64,000 bases of DNA from Clavibacter sp. (lineage in GTDB: Bacteria > Actinomycetota > Actinomycetes > Nanopelagicales > Nanopelagicaceae). The translations under genes and the position numbers were made by a program. The stretch is taken from contig BGOH01000001.1 of NCBI GenBank assembly GCA_003569145.1, forward strand, positions 124,001-188,000, in the 5' to 3' direction. Below are positions 36,338 through 49,607 of the stretch, one piece after another (the first letter of the stretch is position 1; each line of letters starts with the position of its first letter). The notes under the pieces were generated by a model. The model had not been told where the DNA came from. It saw nothing but the letters and a program-made list of their open reading frames with translations, and made no database searches.

Positions 36338-37429
36338 TCACTTTGAGTGAACCAGTTCCAAACTTTCCCTGATTATCTGACCCACACGCTCAACTTCTAT
36401 CAAAAATCCATCGTGGCCAAAGGGAGATGAAATCTGCTTCAACGGTAGGGCTGTTGGTGTTAGCTCAACAATCTCCTCCTGCAATCGCGTTGGAAAGAGG
36501 CGATCGGTGTCAATTGAAACCACCACGACTGGGCGTTGAGCCGTTGCAAGGGCTACATCTATTCCACCTCGACCTCGCCCAATATCGTGCGAAATCATCG
36601 CTGTTTCTAGGACAATGTAAGTGTTGGCATCAAATCGACGCTGCAATTTCTGCGCTTGATGGTCTAAATATGAAGTAATGGCATATCGACCAGTGGCATC
36701 TCCCTGAAGATCGCGGCCAAATCGGGTATGCATCTCATATTCGGTGCGGTAACTCAGATGGGCAATTTTTCTCGCAATGCCCATTCCTTCCATGGGGCCC
36801 ATTTCTTGGTCATAGTAATCCCCGCCATTGAAGTGTGGGTCTGCTGTGATGGCATGTATCTCTGTGCTCCACGTTCCAATTTGATCTCCCGTTGCAATTG
36901 CTGAAGATCCAATCGTGCAGATTGCGCCGATTCGGTCTGGGTGCTCGATAGCCCACTCCAATGAGCGCATTCCGCCTAATGATGGGCCTACCGCAAGCAC
37001 ATAACTTGGAATATCTAGTTGATTAGAGAGCTCAACTTCCGCTCGAACTAGATCTCGGACCGTGACATACGGAAACCGAGAACCCCAACGCTTGCCATCG
37101 GGTGCAAGCGATGAGGGCCCTGTACTTCCTTGGCATCCGCCAACTACATTGGGACAGATGATGAAGTAGCGATCGGTGTCGAACGGCAAACCTGGACCAA
37201 CCATTTCTGGCCACCAGGAAGGCACATCAGACCATCCCGTAAGCGCATGATTGATCAATATCGCGTTTGATCGATCTGCGTTGAGTGTTCCCCAAGTTTG
37301 GTACGCGATTGTGACATCCGGAAGGACTGCGCCAGATTCCAAAATCAAATCACCAAGTTTATGAAAGATTCGCGCGCCAGGGTCATGGGTTTCAAGCCAT
37401 GCGCCTGTGACGCGATTCGGCATTGTCAT
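36338..37429 (-). CDS. metX: Homoserine O-acetyltransferase
   Basis: A 363-residue alpha/beta hydrolase that acetylates homoserine for methionine synthesis. Motifs are the nucleophile elbow VGPSLGGMRSLEW near residues 147-159, ICPNVVGGCQGSTGPSS near 91, the C-terminal HDIGRGRGG and the catalytic His in SPFGHDGFLIE. It follows metY after 20 bases, so both are under the SAM-IV riboswitch in front of metY. Confidence 0.95.
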   Translation of the reverse strand: MTMPNRVTGAWLETHDPGARIFHKLGDLILESGAVLPDVTIAYQTWGTLNADRSNAILINHALTGWSDVPSWWPEMVGPGLPFDTDRYFIICPNVVGGCQGSTGPSSLAPDGKRWGSRFPYVTVRDLVRAEVELSNQLDIPSYVLAVGPSLGGMRSLEWAIEHPDRIGAICTIGSSAIATGDQIGTWSTEIHAITADPHFNGGDYYDQEMGPMEGMGIARKIAHLSYRTEYEMHTRFGRDLQGDATGRYAITSYLDHQAQKLQRRFDANTYIVLETAMISHDIGRGRGGIDVALATAQRPVVVVSIDTDRLFPTRLQEEIVELTPTALPLKQISSPFGHDGFLIEVERVGQIIRESLELVHSK

Positions 37430-37449: not shown

Positions 37450-38772
37450 TTACTTCGCGGCTGCGAAGGCTTTTTCTAAATCTGACTTGATATCAGCTAT
37501 GTTTTCAATTCCAAGACTGAGCCGTACTAGACCTGGAGTTACTCCAGCGCTTAGCTGCTCGGCAGGACTTAGCTGTGAATGAGTTGTGGATGCTGGATGA
37601 ATTGCTAGAGATCGAACATCCCCAATATTTGCCACGTGTGAGAAGATATTTAGCGCCTCAATGAACTTTCTACCAGCTTCAATTCCACCCTTTATCTCAA
37701 AGGAGAGAACTGAGCCACTGCCCCTTGGAGCATACTTCTTAGCTAACTTATTCCAAGGAGATGATTCTAGTGAGGCATAGTTGACCTTAGTAACTTGATT
37801 ATGACTCTCTAACCATTTAGCTGTCGCTAGCGCGTTATCAGTATGGCGCTCCATACGTAGCGATAGAGTCTCAAGTCCTTGAGCCAGTAGCCAGGCATTA
37901 AAGGGTGATGTTGCAGCTCCGATGTCGCGAAGCAGAGTAAGTCGAATTTTGAATATATAGGCTAAATTCGCGCCAAAGGCAGATCCCACACCAAGTGCCT
38001 GAGCATAAACAATTCCGTTATAGCTGGGATCTGGCTGATTGAAATTCTTAAATCGCTCTGGGTATTTTGCATAATCAAACTTTCCAGAATCGACGATTGC
38101 CCCAACTACGGCATTGCCATGACCTGAGAGAAACTTCGTGGCCGAGTGCACCACCACATCTGCGCCATGTTCAATGGGGCGAATTAAAAATGGAGTAGCG
38201 ACAGTATTATCAACAATTAATGGAACTCCAACTTCATGAGCAACTTTTGCAACTGCCTCAATATCTAGGACATCATTTTTTGGATTAGCGATGGTTTCCC
38301 CAAAGAAGGCCTTGGTATTTGGGCGTACAGCTTTTTTCCAGCTTTGTGGATCTTCTGGATTCTCTACAAAGCTCACTTCAATGCCAAATTTTGGCAAGGT
38401 GTAATGAAACAGATTATAAGTTCCGCCATATAGCGATGGTGATGAAACTATGTGATCTCCAGCCTCTGCAACATTTAAAACGGCAAAGGTTGTTGCAGCA
38501 GAACCCGAGGAGAGAAGTAGGGCTGCCACACCTCCTTCAAGTGAGGCAATTCTCTGCTCCACTGCATCTTGAGTTGGATTCATTATCCGGGTGTAGATAT
38601 TGCCGAGCTCTGCTAAGCCGAATAAATCCGCAGCATGCTTGGTGTCACGGAATTGATATGCCGTGGTCTGATAAAGAGGCAACGCTCTAGCTCCAGTGGT
38701 TGGATCTGGAACTTGACCGGCATGTACTTGACGAGTTTCAAAGTGAGTATCAGTTACGCAAAAAGATGACAT
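37450..38772 (-). CDS. metY: O-acetylhomoserine aminocarboxypropyltransferase (sulfhydrylase)
   Basis: A 440-residue PLP enzyme of the Cys/Met metabolism family that makes homocysteine from O-acetylhomoserine and sulfide. Features are the start [29 protein letters not shown], the long-form [24 protein letters not shown], the PLP lysine in [14 protein letters not shown] near residue 216 and the C-terminal [10 protein letters not shown]. The AGGGAGG ribosome binding site is 8 bases before ATG 38772. Expression is predicted to fall when SAM is high through the SAM-IV RNA upstream. Confidence 0.96.
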
Positions 38773-38817: not shown

Positions 38818-38932
38818 AGACCCACGCTTGCCGATGGCGCTTTGCTATCGACCTGGTCTTCACCCGGAGCACCCCACCGTGGTGGAGGGTTGCCGCTCAG
38901 TTAGCCGGGGCTATGAACTGAGACTCATGACC
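38818..38932 (-). promoter_or_regulatory. SAM-IV riboswitch (metY-metX)
   Basis: Read on the minus strand, the aptamer runs GGTCATGAGTCTCAG, then a GCCCCGGCTAACTGAGCGGC block, CAACCCTCCACCACGGTGG, GGTGCTCCGGGTGA, GACCAGGTCGAT and GGCAAGCGTGGGTC. These are the conserved blocks of the actinobacterial SAM-IV class, including the pseudoknot-forming strands. It lies 46 bases upstream of the metY start. A second copy with the same blocks is at 41570-41683. Confidence 0.9.
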
Positions 38933-38975: not shown

Positions 38976-39725
38976 TTACAATCTGCCGGCTTGATGGAGG
39001 CGTTGGAGAAACTCTTTAGTTTCTTTCCGCTTCGGACTTTCCAATATCTTCGCAGGACTTCCCCACTCCAGAATTCGTCCCTGATGCAGATAACAGAGCT
39101 CATCGGCCACCTGTTTGGCAAACCCCATCTCATGGGTAGCCAGCACCATCGTCATTCCCTCGCTCTTTAGATCTCTAACCGTGCTCAAAACTTCATTAAC
39201 CAAGACTGGATCAAGGGCGCTAGTTATCTCATCAAGTAATAGCAGTCGAGGGTGCCTGGCAAGGGAGCGGATAATGGCAACTCTCTGCTGCTGACCCCCA
39301 CTTAGCCGATCTGGATATTGATCAGCCTTCTCCTTCAAACCAAACTTATTTAATAGCTCCAAAGCCTCATCTATCGCCTTCTCTTTTGCCACCTTCTGCA
39401 CCTTGGTTGGAGCCAAAATAACATTTTCAAGCACCGTCATGTGAGGAAAGAGATTAAAGGATTGAAAAACCATTCCTAACTTCTTTCTCACCTCATCAGG
39501 ATTTACATTTGCTGCAGAGATATCTTGCCCATCAAGGAGTATCTGCCCATCATCAATCTGGTCAAGTAAATTTATGCAGCGCAGTAGCGTCGACTTGCCA
39601 CTGCCAGATGCACCAATAAATACTGTGGCTTTATGCTCTAAGACTTTAAAGGAAATATCTTCAAGAACTACTTCACTTCCAAAGCTCTTTCTAACTTTCT
39701 CGAGCTGCAACACCGCCTGACTCAT
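38976..39725 (-). CDS. Amino-acid ABC transporter ATP-binding protein
   Basis: A 249-residue ABC ATPase of the polar amino acid (GlnQ/HisP) type. Walker A is GASGSGKST near residues 37-45, the Q-loop MVFQSFNLFPHMTVLEN is near 85, the signature LSGGQQQRVAI near 140 and Walker B LLLLDEITSALD near 163. The His switch lies in ATHEMGFA. It ends the three-gene transport operon, overlapping the permease by four bases. The SAM-IV switch before the operon points to methionine as cargo. The encoded protein lacks the extra C-terminal ACT-like domain typical of MetN. Confidence 0.93.
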   Translation of the reverse strand: MSQAVLQLEKVRKSFGSEVVLEDISFKVLEHKATVFIGASGSGKSTLLRCINLLDQIDDGQILLDGQDISAANVNPDEVRKKLGMVFQSFNLFPHMTVLENVILAPTKVQKVAKEKAIDEALELLNKFGLKEKADQYPDRLSGGQQQRVAIIRSLARHPRLLLLDEITSALDPVLVNEVLSTVRDLKSEGMTMVLATHEMGFAKQVADELCYLHQGRILEWGSPAKILESPKRKETKEFLQRLHQAGRL

Positions 39726-40633
39726 GCTTGCCCCACTGCATTTTCTCGCTCATAGGAGTTTCTAAGCATCCGATCAGTCCAGCGCGTCAAGGGAATTGTC
39801 ACCAGAAGGAAGATGATTGCTGCCATTACATACGGGGTGTAATTAAAAGTCTTTGCAGTTTGAATCTGCGCGGCTCTTACTGCATCGGTAACTCCCAAAA
39901 TTGAAACTAGACCGGTATCTTTAATCAGCGCTACTAAATCATTTAGTAGTGGTGGGGTGACTCTCTTAAGTGCTTGAGGCAGAACGACATGGCGAAGAGT
40001 CTGAAAATTACTTAAACCCAGTGATCTAGCAGCAGCTCTCTGGCTTGGGTGAACGGTAAGAATTCCAGAGCGAATCACTTCAGCAACATATGCCGAATAG
40101 GTGATGATTACTGCAAGAGTTCCTAAAATCAACACATTATTGGTTAAGCCCTTTATCTGTAGCGCCGGAATTCCAAATCCCACAAGAAGAATTACTAGAA
40201 GCATTGGAATACCACGAAATACATCAACATAAACTGTGGCAAGAATCCTAAATGGGGTTAATGCTGGCGATCTAGAAGTTCTAAGTAGTGCTATCGCTAA
40301 ACCAATGAGCGCTACAGATGTTCCTGCAATAACAGTTAGTGTGGCATTGGTAGTAAACCCGAGAAGTATTTTGGGCAGAATTTCAAAGCCATAAGCCCAC
40401 TTAAAGAATGTATTTCTAAGCGTCTCCCAGCCCGGTGAGGTAACTAGAACTAAACCAAGGGTTCCAAGAACTAAGAAGCTTGAGAGTGCTGCAATTAGTG
40501 CACTTTTCTTATTGCGTGCTCGCCGAGCCGCACGTCTTGCAAGTTCTATTTCACTTGGGCTCCAGCTGCCACCAAAGTTATAAGAAGAAGAGGGCGCAGC
40601 TCTATTGGAACTGCGCCCCGATTTCTTAGCCAT
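39722..40633 (-). CDS. Amino-acid ABC transporter permease
   Basis: A 303-residue permease of the HisM/PAAT type. A hydrophilic N-terminal stretch of about 45 residues rich in Ser and Arg precedes five to six helices. The EAA loop, with AEVIRSGILTVHPSQRAAARSLGLSNFQTLRHVVLPQAL, is at about 190-225. It overlaps the ATPase gene by four bases and follows the binding protein by 33 bases. The long basic N-terminus is unusual but could be a variable cytoplasmic extension. Confidence 0.92.
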   Translation of the reverse strand: MAKKSGRSSNRAAPSSSYNFGGSWSPSEIELARRAARRARNKKSALIAALSSFLVLGTLGLVLVTSPGWETLRNTFFKWAYGFEILPKILLGFTTNATLTVIAGTSVALIGLAIALLRTSRSPALTPFRILATVYVDVFRGIPMLLVILLVGFGIPALQIKGLTNNVLILGTLAVIITYSAYVAEVIRSGILTVHPSQRAAARSLGLSNFQTLRHVVLPQALKRVTPPLLNDLVALIKDTGLVSILGVTDAVRAAQIQTAKTFNYTPYVMAAIIFLLVTIPLTRWTDRMLRNSYERENAVGQA

Positions 40634-40666: not shown

Positions 40667-41518
40667 CTATCCAAGTACTGGCGCTCCTGCAGAAGATGTT
40701 AACCACTTTTCAATAATGGCCTGAAGTGTTCCATTATTGTTAATTGCATCGACCGCTCCTGAAACACATGATGTGATCGGATTATCTTTAGATAGCAAGA
40801 GACCAAATCCTTGATCTCCTGAATCACTGCCATCAATTTGTCCAACGATTATTCCATTTGGAACTTCAACAGCTGAGAGATAGAAAGCAGTTGGAAGGTC
40901 TACAACTAGACCATCAATCTGCTTATTCTTAAGGGCAGTAACAGCAGCAGCGTTATCGTTAAATACCGCAGCCTTTAGCCCTAGTTGGCCTTCAATCACA
41001 TCAAGTGAGGTCGTTGAAACAGCGGCTCCTAATTTAGCTCCGGCATCTGCAAGACCCTGCAAGGTAGTGACGCCATCAATCTTGCTTCCCTTGAAGGAGA
41101 CAATTGCTTGATTTGATTTGTAGTATGCAGATGAGAAATCAACAACCTGCTTGCGCTCATCAGTTATGGAATATTGCTGGAGGTTGAAGTCAAATGTCTT
41201 TGGTCCTGGCGCAATTGCAGCATCAAAGCTGGTGCGAACCCACTTCACTGCTGACTGGTCATAACCAAGCTCACTTGCAACTGCATATGCAACAGCGGCT
41301 TCAAAACCTTCACCTGACTCTGGAGCATCATCGATGACCCATGGATAGTAGGCAGGCTCACCTGTTGCAATTGTTAGAACTCCTGCTTCAACTGTTGCCA
41401 GAGATTCTGGAGAACATGTTGTTGAATCACCAGTTGCGCCTTCATCACTTGATGAGGAACATGCTGTGATTACTAGAGCAGTTAGAAGTAATGGGATGAA
41501 TCTAAAGATTTTTTTCAC
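40667..41518 (-). CDS. Amino-acid ABC transporter substrate-binding lipoprotein
   Basis: A 283-residue extracellular solute-binding protein of family 3. It starts with GTG 41518 and a lipoprotein signal MKKIFRFIPLLLTALVITAC, with the lipid-modified Cys at residue 20. The mature protein has the family shape (LTIATGEPAYYPWVIDD, VDFSSAYYKSNQAIV, LKNKQIDGLVVDLPTAFYL, GFGLLLSKDN). The SAM-IV riboswitch just upstream predicts that the ligand is methionine or a close relative. The family itself binds many amino acids. Confidence 0.92.
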   Translation of the reverse strand: MKKIFRFIPLLLTALVITACSSSSDEGATGDSTTCSPESLATVEAGVLTIATGEPAYYPWVIDDAPESGEGFEAAVAYAVASELGYDQSAVKWVRTSFDAAIAPGPKTFDFNLQQYSITDERKQVVDFSSAYYKSNQAIVSFKGSKIDGVTTLQGLADAGAKLGAAVSTTSLDVIEGQLGLKAAVFNDNAAAVTALKNKQIDGLVVDLPTAFYLSAVEVPNGIIVGQIDGSDSGDQGFGLLLSKDNPITSCVSGAVDAINNNGTLQAIIEKWLTSSAGAPVLG

Positions 41519-41569
41519 TTTTTCCTTGCCTTTCGCAAATTAGGAGCTTAAGGCCTGCCAATAATTGTC

Positions 41570-41683
41570 AGACCCGCGCTTGTCGATGCACTTTGCAATC
41601 GACCAGGTCCTCACCCGGAGCACCCCACCGCGGTGGAGGGTTGCCGTCCAGTTAGCCGGGGCTTAATGCTGGAACTCTTGACC
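41570..41683 (-). promoter_or_regulatory. SAM-IV riboswitch (ABC transporter operon)
   Basis: The same ordered blocks as the metY leader are seen on the minus strand: GGTCAAGAGTTCCAGC, GCCCCGGCTAACTGGACGGC, CAACCCTCCACCGCGGTGG, GGTGCTCCGGGTGA, GACCTGGTCGAT and GACAAGCGCGGGTC. Stem bases differ from the first copy but pairing is kept (for example CCGCGG in place of CCACGG), which supports real RNA structure. It ends about 51 bases upstream of the binding-protein start and follows the ald stop by about 20 bases. Confidence 0.9.
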
Positions 41684-41703
41684 TAAGGCGGACTTTAGAA
41701 AAT

Positions 41704-42813
41704 TTAGAGTGAAAAGTCCATCTCAACACTTGCCATGCCATGAGCCTGAGCTACTGCTTTATAAGTGATCTGGCCATTATGGACATTTAGCCCCTTAGCA
41801 AGGCCAGAGTTTTCAGATAGCGCCTTCATCCAGCCCTTATTGGCAAGTGCTAGCGCGTAAGGCAGGGTGGCATTTGAAAGGGCGTAGGTGGAGGTCAGGG
41901 GCAGAGCTCCTGGCATATTGGCAACGCAGTAAAAGATGCTCTCATGAACTTTATATGTTGGATCTGCATGGGTTGTGGCCTTTGAATCCTGGAAACAGCC
42001 ACCTTGATCAATGGCAATATCAACTAAGACTGAACCCTTCTTTAAATGCGAAACTAACTCATTACTAATCAACTTCGGAGCCTTTGCGCCGTGTACTAAA
42101 ACAGCTCCAATAATTAAATCTGCAAGAAGTGCTTCTTGCTCAATCTCATGGGTATTAGAGACCAAAGTCTTTACTGCTCCATTAAATATCTGATCAATAT
42201 AGGCAAGTCTGCTCTGATTTAAATCAACTACCGTTACATCAGCTCTCATACCAAGGGCAATAGTTGCTGCAGCAAGACCTGCAGTTCCTCCGCCAAGAAT
42301 TAGAACCTTTCCAGGTCTTACTCCAGGAACTCCGCCAAGTAATACACCGCGCCCACCTGCACTTGCCTGCAGCGCTGCTGCGCCAACTTGTGGAGCCATA
42401 CGCCCAGCAACCTCGCTCATTGGAGCAAGAAGAGGAAGATTGGAATTTAGCTCAACAGTTTCATAGGCAATTGCAGTGATACCGCTTTTCATTAGCGCAT
42501 CAGTGCAATCCTTTGAAGCAGCAAGATGAAGATAGGTAAATAGAACTTGGCCAGCTCTCATTCGGTGATATTCAGCAGCAATCGGCTCTTTTACTTTTAA
42601 GACTAATTCGGCTTCAGCCCAGAGCTGATCTGCTGAGGCAATAATTGTTGCCCCAACGCTTCTATAGTCATCATCTGAGATTGCGCAGCCAAGACCAGCC
42701 GAACTTTCCACTAAAACTTTATGCCCCTGGTGGATAAATTCTCTAGCTCCTGCCGGGGTTAGTGAGACTCGATACTCATGGTTCTTTATCTCTTTGGGAA
42801 CGCCGATGTTCAC
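41704..42813 (-). CDS. ald: Alanine dehydrogenase
   Basis: A 369-residue NAD-dependent enzyme interconverting alanine and pyruvate plus ammonia. Family features are MNIGVPKEIKNHEYRVSLTPAG at the N-terminus, VLFTYLHLAA with the catalytic His region near 95, GGVPGVRPGKVLILGGGTAG near 160-180, LVDIAIDQGGCFQ near 265 and the C-terminal GLNVHNGQITYKAVA. It lies 2 bases before DUF4192 in the reverse order of transcription. It may allow growth on alanine as a nitrogen and carbon source. Confidence 0.96.
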   Translation of the reverse strand: MNIGVPKEIKNHEYRVSLTPAGAREFIHQGHKVLVESSAGLGCAISDDDYRSVGATIIASADQLWAEAELVLKVKEPIAAEYHRMRAGQVLFTYLHLAASKDCTDALMKSGITAIAYETVELNSNLPLLAPMSEVAGRMAPQVGAAALQASAGGRGVLLGGVPGVRPGKVLILGGGTAGLAAATIALGMRADVTVVDLNQSRLAYIDQIFNGAVKTLVSNTHEIEQEALLADLIIGAVLVHGAKAPKLISNELVSHLKKGSVLVDIAIDQGGCFQDSKATTHADPTYKVHESIFYCVANMPGALPLTSTYALSNATLPYALALANKGWMKALSENSGLAKGLNVHNGQITYKAVAQAHGMASVEMDFSL

Positions 42814-44644: not shown

Positions 44645-46649
44645 TCACTGCCCTGTGGAGTTGTATTGGCTAGAAAGTCTTTTAAGAGATTCTTTGATAA
44701 CAGCTCCATCGCTACTTCTCCAGAGCGGCGGCATAGAGTTTAAAAGCACTGATCCATAGCGTTTATTAACAATTCTTGAATCAAGAATTGCCACTACCCC
44801 GCGATCATCAATGGATCGAATTAGCCTTCCTGTTCCCTGCGCAAGAAGTAGAGCAGCCCTTGGAAGTGAGACTTGCATAAAACCTGAGCCGCCAGATGCA
44901 TCTATCTGGGCAGCCCTTGCCGACATCACTGGATCATCTGGTCTTGGAAAAGGTATTCGATCAATTGCTACCAAAATACAAGATGGCCCCGGCACATCAA
45001 CTCCCTGCCAAAGGCTCATTGTTCCAAGCAAAATTGAGGTGGGATCACTGGCAAATTTTTCAACTAAGACCCCAACGCTATCGCCCCGTCTTTGAGTAAT
45101 GATCTTTATCGGAAGCTCTGCTAAAACTCGCCTTAGATGTTCATCAGCCATCTCAACACCGCGCCATGATGAAAATAGCGCAAGAGTTCTTCCCCCGGCA
45201 GCATCAATTAACTCACCTAGCTCAACCAAGCCTGCGGACTTGGCCCATCTCTTGTTGGCTCAGGAAGATCTCTTGGAAGATAGAGCGCTCCTTGGCTGGC
45301 AAAATCAAAGGGTGAACCAACATCAAGTGATACTAAATTCTCTGGGTCAATATCTCCCCCGCTTTCGCTACTTTCATCTTGGCTAGCCTCTAGTGGATCA
45401 ATACCAAAGCTCTTAGCAATTGCAGCAAAACTATTTCCAACGCTCAAGGTTGCACTTGTTGCGATAACTGGAGTTTTAGTAAATAAGTTCTCGCGTAATA
45501 GATGTGAGACTTCTAGTGGAGCAAGATAGAGAGTGGAAAATGTTGGTTCAAACCAGAGCACTTGATTACTGCCAATCTTAAGCATCTTTGATGCGGTGGT
45601 TTTAATTTCATTGACCGCTCCCTTTACTCGAGCCCGCTCAGCTAAAGCATCTGGATCAACAATTAGTGAATCGGCATTAATTAGCGCAATAGCGCTCTCT
45701 GCTGCCTCTTTAATCTTTCTCACCCAAGGGGCAAGAAGCAACGGTAGTTCTTGAAGCTTTCGCTCATCGCCACTTTTTATGCGAAACTCTTGGCCATACT
45801 CATCAAGTGCTCTGCTAAACCCATCGCAAGCTTTGCCCAGCGCTTCAGCAGCTTTTCCGGGAAGATGTTTTCGCAGCATATTTGCTGCTCTACTAGCCTT
45901 GCTGCAGTTAGCTCCTCAGTTACTGCTTGAGTGGTGCGATCCATAAACTCATGAGCCTCATCTAAAATCACTGCATCTCGCTCTGGCAATATCGGATGAG
46001 AGTCAACGATTTCAATTGCAAGTAAGGTGTGATTAGTAACGACAATATCTGCGCTCTGGGCTTTAGTTTTTGCCTTCACTGCAAAACATTGCGCTCCAAA
46101 GCGACATTCATCAGCTCCCACACATTCTCTTCCAGATGTTGAATTGGCTAGCCAGACTCGTCTATCAACCTCAGGGGCATCATCTCGATCCCCCGAGATT
46201 CCATCTCTACTTGCCCACTGGCGAAGGCGGCGGGCATCTGATTCAAGTGATGAAATCTCAACTAAGACCTGGCTATCAACGCCAGAGTCATCAGCATTCA
46301 TCTTCTGCAGGCAGAGATAATTTCCAACCCCTTTATAAACAGCAAAGGTGATGCTTCTTCCCAATTCTTTCTCTAACGCCTTTTGAACCTTAGGAAGATC
46401 TCGCTCAATTAATTGTCGCTGCAGCGCAAGAGTTGCTGTTGCAACAAGGACTCGTTTGCCATGAACTAGAGCTGGCACTAAATAAGCAAGTGATTTTCCA
46501 GTTCCAGTTCCTGCTTGAACAAGGAGGTGATGGCGATCTTCAAGAGCGTTTGCCACTGCCTCTGCCATTGCAATCTGGCCAGCTCTCTGGCTTCCACCAA
46601 TTGCCTCGACTGCTGCTGCTAGCGCCTTTCTAACTGACTCTGCGCTCAT
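44645..46649 (-). CDS. dinG: DinG-family ATP-dependent DNA helicase (two frameshifts)
   Basis: Three frames (46649-45777, 45879-45217, 45229-44645) encode the ordered parts of one XPD/DinG helicase of about 668 residues. They hold the Walker A (VQAGTGTGKSLAYLVPAL near residue 40), the iron-sulfur cysteine region with GRECVGADECRFGAQCF, the DEAH box VILDEAHEF, and the last helicase motifs LFSSWRGVEMADEHL and QGTGRLIRS. The breaks are near 45888-45892 and 45239-45246. At each, one added base restores a family-like junction (ANMLRKHLPGKAAEAL; SAGLVELGELIDAAGG). These are likely sequence errors; otherwise the gene is dead. Confidence 0.87.
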
Positions 46650-46797: not shown

Positions 46798-49607
46798 CTA
46801 GCTACATCCTGAAGTATTGCCACAACCTTCACAGACATAGCAGGCTCCTGAAGCTCTCATCTTTACGCCACAGGTAACACAGAGTGGAGCATCTGATTTA
46901 ACGCCAGCGATCTTCTCTAGCAGCTCTGTTGAAGAACCAATTTGGTGGAGGGAAGTATCAGCCTTTGCAGGCTTTGCAACTGGCGCGCTGGCCTTCTTCT
47001 CCTCAACTACCTCTATCTTTTCCTCAACAATTTGAGCATATTCACCGGTTTCAAGGGCTGCTGCTCGCTCTGCTGCGGTATAGATACCAAATGCTGCGCG
47101 CTCTTCATATGGCAGGTAATCAAGAGCAAGGCGGCGGAAGATGTAATCCATCATTGATTGGGCCATACGAATATCTGGATCATCAGTTATTCCTGCTGGC
47201 TCAAAGCGAGAGTTTGTGAACTTAGAAACATAGGTCTCTAGCGGCACTCCATATTGCAGACCGATTGATACTGCAATTGAGAAGACATCCATAACACCTG
47301 CAAGAGTTGAACCCTGCTTGCCAAGCTTTAAGAAGATCTCACCTAGCTGGCCATCTTCATAGGTACCAGCATTCATATAACCCTCTGCCCCGCCAACTGA
47401 GAACGAAGTTGTTCTTGATGGACGTGACTTTGGAAGGCGCTTACGAGTTGCAGGAGCAGGAGCTGCGCTTACCTGATCATCTTTGCCATTGTTCTTTGAT
47501 TTTGCATCAGAGAGTGGCTGACCAACTTTGCAACTATCGCGGTAAACAGCAAGAGCCTTAAGCCCTAACTTCCATCCTTCGTAATAAACCTCTTCAACAT
47601 CTTCAACGCTTGCATCAGCAGGAAGATTTACCGTCTTTGAGATAGCTCCAGAAAGGAATGGTTGGCAGGCAGCCATCATTCTCACATGGCCCATTGGCGC
47701 GATAGATCTTGTGCCAAGCGCGCAATCAAAGACATCGTAATGCTCAACCTTTAGCCCTGGAGCATCAACTACATGGCCATTAGCAGCGATGTATTCCACA
47801 ATCGCTTCAATGGTCTCATCGGTATAGCCCAACTTCTTTAGAGCTTGTGGGACGGTCTGGTTAACGATCTGGAGTGATCCTCCGCCAACCATCTTCTTAA
47901 ACTTAACGAGTGAGAAATCTGGCTCAATACCAGTGGTATCGCAATCCATCATCAAGCCGATAGTTCCAGTAGGTGCAAGAACTGATGCTTGAGCATTTCT
48001 CCAGCCATTCTTCTCACCAAGTGCAATACAGCTATCCCATTGCTTATTAGCCTCAGCTAAAACATCTCTATCAAGAGTTGAAACTGATTTAGCAGAAAGT
48101 GATGCGGCCTGGTGCTTCTTCATGACTCGAGTATGAGGAGCTGCATTTCTGGCATATCCCTCATATGGGCCAACGATTCCAGCTAGTTCAGCAGATCTGC
48201 GATATGAAGTTCCAGTCATAAGTGAGGTGATCGCTCCAGCTAGGGCTCTTCCGCCCTCTGAATCATAAGCAAGTCCTGATGCCATAAGAAGAGCGCCAAG
48301 GTTTGCATAACCAATTCCTAGTTGGCGATAGGCCCTTGTTGTTACGCCGATTGCCTCGGTTGGGAAATCTGCAAAACAAATTGAGATATCCATTGCAGTA
48401 ATGATCATCTCAACTGCCTTAACGAAGTTCTTTGCATCAAATGATCCATCGCTCTTTAAAAACTTCATAAGATTTAAAGAAGCAAGGTTGCATGAGGAGT
48501 TATCAAGTGACATATATTCCGAGCAAGGATTGGAGGCATTGATGCGACCGGTCTCAGGGCTGGTATGCCAATCATTGATTGTGGTGTCATATTGAATTCC
48601 AGGATCTGCGCAAGCCCAGGCAGCCTCTGCCATCTTGCGGAATAGTTGACGAGAATCAACCTCTTCATTACCTCACCTGTTGCGCGAGCTGTTAGACCAA
48701 ACTTGGCTCCGCTTTCATAGGCGCGCATAAATTCATCATTTACGCGAACTGAGTTATTGGCATTTTGATATTGCACAGAGATGATGTCTTTGCCACCAAG
48801 ATCCATATCAAAGCCAGCATCGCGAAGGGCGCGAATCTTGTCTTCTTCTCTTACCTTAGTTTCAATAAATTCTTCAATATCTGGGTGATCGATATCTAGA
48901 ACAACCATCTTGGCAGCTCTTCTAGTTGCGCCACCTGATTTGATTGTTCCAGCAGAGGAATCAGCCCCGCGCATAAATGAAACTGGGCCAGAGGCTGTGC
49001 CACCTGATTTCAATAGCTCTTTTGAGGAGCGAATCCGTGAGAGATTTAATCCAGCTCCTGATCCACCTTTGAAGATCATGCCCTCTTCGCGATACCAGTT
49101 AAGGATCGATTCCATCGTGTCATCAACTGAGAGGATGAAACAGGCAGATACTTGCTGCGGAGCTGATGTTCCTACGTTAAACCAGACTGGAGAGTTAAAG
49201 GAAAATACCTGGTGCAGGAGCATATAAGTTAATTCATGTTCAAAAATTTCAGCATCTTCTGGAGTTGCAAAATAACCATGTTCTTTTCCAGCTTTGGTGT
49301 AGGTAAGAACAACGCGATCGATAACTTGCTTTAATGAGTGCTCTCTATTTTCAGCTCCCACTGCGCCGCGGAAATACTTTGTTGTAACAATGGTTGAGGC
49401 ATTAACTGACCAGAAATCTGGATACTCAACGCCGCGTTGTTCAAAGACAACTTCGCCGCTCTTCCAGTTGGTCTGCACCACATCGCGTCTCTCCCAATTA
49501 ACGCCTTCATATGGGTGTTGACCAGCTGTGGTGTAAATCCGCTCCATACTTAAGCCTTTTTCTGACTTGGCTTTCCCCGATGGGCGATTGATTACTGTGT
49601 CCGACAT
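46798..49607 (-). CDS. nrdJ: Class II (B12-dependent) ribonucleotide reductase (frameshifted)
   Basis: Two frames (49607 to about 48665, then to 46798) form one NrdJ of about 936 residues. It reduces ribonucleotides with adenosylcobalamin. The N-part has FNSPVWFNVG, a Cys in VSACFILSVDD, and FKGGSGAGLNLSRIRS. The C-part has NPCSEYMSLDNSSCNLASLNL, PTGTIGLMMDCDTTGIEPD and a Cys-rich end (CVTCGVKMRASGACYVCEGC). At 48661-48668 the coding strand reads ATGAAGAGG where ATGGAAGAGG restores GEVMEEVDSRQLFRKMAEAAW. It follows nrdR on the same strand. Confidence 0.92.

Follow-up and report, generated by a model that had tools for sequence, protein, structure and literature searches.

A SAM-IV riboswitch directly before a polar amino acid-type ABC importer in Nanopelagicales points to a sulfur amino acid as the probable substrate

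The window, that is, the whole 64-kb stretch of DNA analysed here, spans positions 124,001-188,000 (forward strand) of contig BGOH01000001.1 of GCA_003569145.1, an assembly of 1.08 Mb in 8 contigs that is 81% complete; window positions are used throughout. The features of the locus are listed below in the direction of reading.

41704-42813: ald (alanine dehydrogenase), just upstream of the SAM-IV-importer unit
41715..41720, minus strand: -35-like hexamer TGGACT, read from sequence, inside the 3' end of ald and 17 nt ahead of the -10 hexamer
41692..41697, minus strand: -10 hexamer TAAAGT, beginning 14 nt ahead of aptamer nucleotide 1
41571..41683, minus strand: SAM-IV aptamer of the transporter operon (RF00634, 103.6 bits, E 5.8e-18; covariation in relatives)
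41519..41570, minus strand: putative expression platform of 52 nt, with a Shine-Dalgarno-like AAGGAA before GTG (sequence and single-sequence folding)
40667..41518, minus strand: extracellular amino-acid-binding lipoprotein (SBP) of 283 aa with a GTG start (SBP_bac_3, PF00497, 74.8 bits, cut-off 26.4; its only Pfam match)
39722..40633, minus strand: HisM/GlnP-type permease of 303 aa (BPD_transp_1, PF00528, 74.6 bits, cut-off 26.4; HEQRo_perm_3TM, TIGR01726, 52.3 bits, cut-off 42.2)
38976..39725, minus strand: GlnQ/ArtP-type ATPase of 249 aa (ABC_tran, PF00005, 122.5 bits, cut-off 25; no NIL match)
38819..38932, minus strand: SAM-IV riboswitch before metY (RF00634, 106.7 bits, E 1.2e-18)
37450..38772, minus strand: metY, O-acetylhomoserine sulfhydrylase (NF005872, 754.3 bits, cut-off 703)
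36338..37429, minus strand: metX, homoserine O-acetyltransferase (NF001209, 418.5 bits, cut-off 331)

After the transporter aptamer, the genes for the SBP, permease and ATPase follow one another on the same strand, and then the second SAM-IV, metY and metX. The GTG start of the SBP gene lies 52 nt past the aptamer, the permease and ATPase genes overlap by 4 nt, the metY riboswitch begins 43 nt after the end of the ATPase gene and metY starts 46 nt past its riboswitch. The importer operon extends to 38976; the interval 40667-41683 takes in the leader and the SBP gene only. A preliminary description of this DNA had placed the same riboswitch class before metY-metX at a distance of 2.8 kb; the class was recovered, and the distance was slightly generous (2.64 kb from end to start, 2.75 kb from start to start). 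Elsewhere in the window, an apparent DinG-type helicase (44645-46649) and an apparent B12-type ribonucleotide reductase (46798-49607), both judged by eye, each fall into several ORFs that overlap and lie in different frames, probably reflecting frameshift errors in the draft assembly.

Domain searches bore out the earlier view that the aptamer stands before an SBP3-HisM-GlnQ operon: the operon is of the polar amino acid (PAAT) type, not MetNIQ. It shares with the HisJQMP, GlnHPQ and ArtJ systems an SBP_bac_3 protein, an HEQRo-type permease and a GlnQ-type ATPase, all above general family cut-offs, but it differs from them in having a single permease gene, a SAM riboswitch ahead and no substrate-specific cut-off reached. 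The nearest solved structure of the ATPase was ArtP (3c41, E 3.7e-80), and its match to the MetN model (192.7 bits) fell below the cut-off of 499.7. Pfam search of the 249-aa ATPase did not find the C-terminal NIL domain, as expected from the earlier remark that the regulatory domain of MetN is missing. In MetN this domain senses methionine, and an ATPase that lacks it fits regulation at the RNA level. MetNIQ importers (MUT family) are frequently regulated by SAM-I riboswitches or methionine T-boxes. The window importer resembles them as a three-part ABC importer under a methionine-branch signal and probably does the same job, whereas it has neither the MetQ/NlpA protein nor the NIL domain, and its permease and SBP are of the PAAT type.

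S117, R122 and D207 of the SBP are invariant in an alignment with 46 relatives (A1), and we take S117/R122 (SIT..R) and D207 (D-x-P-T) to be the alpha-amino-acid clamp sites, as in the LAO and GlnBP structures. The AlphaFold model built from the alignment of 46 relatives (mean pLDDT 85.9) has the family-3 binding protein fold. Its structural neighbours were NocT, OccJ, LAO, SocA, GlnP SBD2 and GlnBP (Z 18-19.5), and the gonococcal cystine receptor scored Z 17.4. Since binders of Arg, Gln, Lys, opines, Glu and cystine score so closely, ligand assignment from the model and its PDB neighbours was rejected. Assignment from NCBIfam was likewise rejected, because the SBP reaches no equivalog cut-off in that collection and misses all of them by far.

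We then consider the leader itself. The covariance-model search proposed in the preliminary description was carried out on both leaders: cmscan of the window with Rfam 15 returned exactly two gathering-level matches, each a full-length SAM-IV (model 1-116) on the minus strand, with scores far above the gathering score of 38 bits. Across the whole assembly (81% complete), SAM-IV was found only at these two sites. The class is built of P1, P2a/b, P3 and P5 together with the pseudoknots PK-1 and PK-2, the latter being one feature that separates SAM-IV from SAM-I (PMC6890682). All of these helices and both pseudoknots are present in both window aptamers. For PK-2, the P3 loop of the transporter aptamer (CCGCG) pairs with the 3' tail (CGCGG), and the metY aptamer has a compensated pair (loop CCACG, tail CGUGG); the two variants occur in 33 and 22 of 81 aptamers, respectively. 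As each window aptamer carries one compensated type, the transporter leader is not a decayed copy. The two are 89% identical to each other, and each most resembles the same-position aptamers of relatives.

The covariation analysis took in 32 aptamers of the order plus one relative. Changes on both sides were observed in 25 of the 39 SAM-IV base pairs (average of 11.6 in shuffles), and none of 500 shuffles reached the observed measures. Paired cells amounted to 92.6% and dropped to 46% or less when partners were slid by one column; they were 97.5% for PK-1 and about 89% for PK-2, with compensatory changes in both pseudoknots. Thus, the transporter leader is a genuine SAM-IV riboswitch, and on the basis of its class each window aptamer would be expected to bind SAM. 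It should be noted that several genera of the order also have weak SAM-IV matches (43-66 bits) that do not adjoin recognised met genes (L290:214-330, L290:5057-5173, L291:3539-3658, L291:7365-7477, L292:3463-3577, L294:201-316, L297:203-322 and L298:200-318), some of them near or overlapping short unknown ORFs; they may represent a SAM-IV relative that is mobile or off-function.

A TANNNT hexamer lies 13-14 nt ahead of aptamer nucleotide 1 in nearly all of the 81 aptamers; with a spacing of 7-16 nt allowed, it was present in 80 of 81 leaders, compared with a shuffled mean of 19.2. The -35-like element (TGGAC/TAGAC type) was seen again in relatives and ahead of the metY aptamer. The ald stop codon is located only 20 nt ahead of the transporter aptamer; these promoter-like sites are therefore located where ald ends, and expression of the operon need not rely on read-through from that gene. 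In 44 leaders, the start codon lay 8-79 nt past the end of the aptamer. In six relatives the gap was only 8-16 nt, with the Shine-Dalgarno sequence at or just after the aptamer tail, which leaves no space for a terminator; transcription termination was thus rejected as a general mechanism, and a PK-2 held by SAM would be expected to block ribosome access. Within the window's expression platform, pairing is possible between GCCUU and AAGGC, and the candidate hairpin, predicted by single-sequence folding, would mask the Shine-Dalgarno sequence. Control is probably exerted at translation start.

In the mechanism that we propose, transcription would be driven by a promoter with its -35 element in the 3' end of ald and would begin at or beside aptamer nucleotide 1. 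At high SAM levels, SAM-IV would fold and hold its 3' tail in PK-2, and less binding protein, permease and ATPase would be made, most likely through an effect at translation start. When SAM drops, the importer would be produced along with the neighbouring MetY and MetX. The importer would be a PAAT-family ABC transporter for a sulfur amino acid, most likely methionine, that replaces the missing MetNIQ. We infer both the direction and the level of this control.

The preliminary description had also called for a survey of related genomes. By its named relatives, the window's genome belongs to Candidatus Nanopelagicales. SAM-IV was detected in 235 of 251 genomes of the order, and the importer binding protein in 155 of 251 (E <= 1e-20). 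Among 80 binding-protein loci, 46 had SAM-IV directly before the operon, 32 did not and 2 could not be judged at contig ends. Thus, the SAM-IV-SBP-permease-ATPase arrangement, with the same strand and gene order, was observed in 46 of 78 assessable Nanopelagicales loci, a proportion that is not an unbiased rate because loci were chosen by similarity rank and spread over genera. In the window's genus, all 12 assessable loci had the riboswitch before the importer. The SBP-permease-ATPase order was invariant wherever the contig extends far enough, and in several genera the importer is followed by SAM-IV-metY-metX as in the window. Some SAM-IV-led importers had no metY in the surrounding locus, and the other high-scoring SAM-IVs of the order that were examined precede only metY or metX.

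Outside the order, no SAM-IV was found upstream of 29 homologous operons of other Actinomycetia with either Rfam or our custom model R1, including those of Streptomyces, Micromonospora, Geodermatophilus, Agromyces and Leifsonia. A small-genome, sister-like family outside the order does have SAM-IV before the importer (L156), and seven further loci with SAM-IV (L211-L213 and L216-L219) may belong to the same family. The idea of a hidden SAM-IV in leaders lacking a match was rejected after five of them were scanned by E-value and the operon had no SAM-IV immediately ahead in any case. In other Actinomycetia the genes flanking the operon vary between genomes, and they were rejected as a guide to the ligand.

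Several local variants of the arrangement were also observed. Part of one large genus (L106, L107, L110-L112 and L115) has the importer without SAM-IV, in several cases after a tRNA gene; the leaders are mutually similar (CGCGTGTAGACA...) and different from SAM-IV, and their sequences suggest that these importers may be under other control. Across the window's genus, as in some other genera, the SAM-IV-importer unit has ald immediately ahead of it; in L019 there is no importer, and SAM-IV-metY comes straight after ald. In L299 (G138:C43:3429-3798), which belongs to the same genus, the SBP and permease genes are missing together with most of the ATPase gene, so that a transporter-type SAM-IV runs straight into the 3' end of the ATPase gene, and SAM-IV-metY-metX comes next; this looks like a natural deletion scar, with an assembly error as the alternative.

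To follow the link, 99 binding proteins were placed in a quick maximum-likelihood tree. The SAM-IV label required 15 changes, compared with 32 when shuffled, and at least 11 of them are forced by starred branches; the link has thus been gained or lost repeatedly. Two clades of the order that share about 50% identity carry SAM-IV, and the window's is one of them. They differ in T-G-E-P-A-Y and N-x-Q-Q versus T-D-D/E/N-P-A-Y and D-x-N-Q/E, at positions expected to line the ligand pocket. That the same switch was repeatedly gained or lost on two importer versions speaks for a substrate linked to sulfur and against mere chance.

With regard to methionine metabolism, metX and metY are present in the window and metH in 22 of 24 genomes of the genus, so the group makes methionine and would gain from a joint shut-off of synthesis and import. 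The earlier statement that this organism also makes methionine holds to that extent, although metH was not found in the window's own assembly (81% complete). MetQ/NlpA (PF03180) was found in none of the 251 genomes of the order, with a positive control search; the usual methionine importer is therefore missing. Pairing with SAM-IV recurs in many relatives without this importer, which indicates that methionine or another sulfur amino acid is probably imported.

On this basis we consider it rather probable that the operon encodes a SAM-repressed sulfur amino-acid importer, most likely for methionine, that stands in for MetNIQ. A methionine transporter of the PAAT family, as predicted in the preliminary description, is the best-supported reading in view of the conserved coupling, the absence of MetQ from 251 genomes and a regulon whose other partners are only metY and metX; the ligand itself is what we infer, as sequence and fold do not decide it. 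The 32 of 78 loci in the order and all 29 operons of other Actinomycetia that lack SAM-IV count against this reading.

It seems rather unlikely, but deserves serious attention, that a genuine riboswitch controls a transporter for cystine or cysteine. MetY needs sulfide. Cysteine could supply it in an organism unable to reduce sulfate, which would make SAM feedback on cyst(e)ine import sensible. Sulfite reductase (PF01077) was not found in any of the 24 genomes of the genus, which agrees with the report that acI strains lack assimilatory sulfate reduction and need reduced sulfur (PMC5301498). A CysD-sized PF01507 protein of about 304 aa was observed in the window's genome (G000:C4:131413-132096) and in most other genomes of the genus with a PF01507 match, with sulfite reductase in none; it is perhaps used for sulfation rather than assimilation. 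The best single-substrate match of the SBP was the cystine SBP model NF008426 (57.2 bits), and a precedent exists in yckJK of Lactobacillus paracasei, a PAAT-type transporter under a methionine T-box for which the authors argue for cysteine (PMC6004538). However, 57 bits is far below the cut-off of 312 and the margin over GlnH (52 bits, also far below its cut-off) is trivial, none of the SAM-IVs of the order examined precedes a recognised cysteine gene, and if the transporter carries cyst(e)ine, no recognised methionine importer would remain in the order, though one of another family is possible.

A methionine-related ligand, namely methionine sulfoxide, S-methylmethionine, homocysteine, homoserine or D-methionine, would suit a SAM-controlled regulon equally well, and the open water column would presumably offer oxidised and methylated forms, but nothing points to a specific compound and the operon has no accessory enzyme; we therefore regard this as improbable. 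Finally, it is very improbable that the riboswitch is a passenger on a general amino-acid importer with no sulfur tie, locally duplicated from the metY leader, as the similarity and closeness of the two window aptamers and the SAM-IV-less relatives outside the order might suggest, since SAM-IV also precedes importers with no metY nearby and those of the second clade, each window aptamer is closest to its positional counterparts, and both kinds retain PK-2 and the promoter-like box.

SAM-IV before O-acetylhomoserine sulfhydrylase has been reported in Mycobacterium avium (PMC3774663), and the metY copy in the window, with the same class, helices and pseudoknots as those before metY/metX in Actinobacteria, is a classic target, whereas the transporter copy precedes an ABC importer instead. 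The yckJK system resembles the window operon in tying a PAAT-type transporter to a methionine signal through leader RNA, but it involves a T-box in Firmicutes with cysteine favoured, in contrast with a SAM riboswitch here. In the first complete acI genomes, the riboswitch search was confined to the thiamine, FMN and cobalamin classes (PMC5301498). Our search of the open full-text literature gave no report that connects SAM-IV with a PAAT-type importer. What is new here is the pairing of a known riboswitch class with a known transporter family, which predicts a substrate.

Thus, our results provide a testable function for an ABC importer family labelled just 'polar amino acid', and import joins the methionine synthesis genes as a target of the SAM-IV class. 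More tentatively, the whole order of abundant freshwater actinobacteria may have replaced MetNIQ by a SAM-IV-controlled methionine importer of the PAAT family; if so, members of this unassigned operon family in Streptomyces, Micromonospora and Microbacteriaceae, where it is widespread, would likewise import a sulfur amino acid. The finding also bears on the reduced-sulfur supply of streamlined freshwater bacteria that are apparently unable to reduce sulfate, and on what they may need in growth media.
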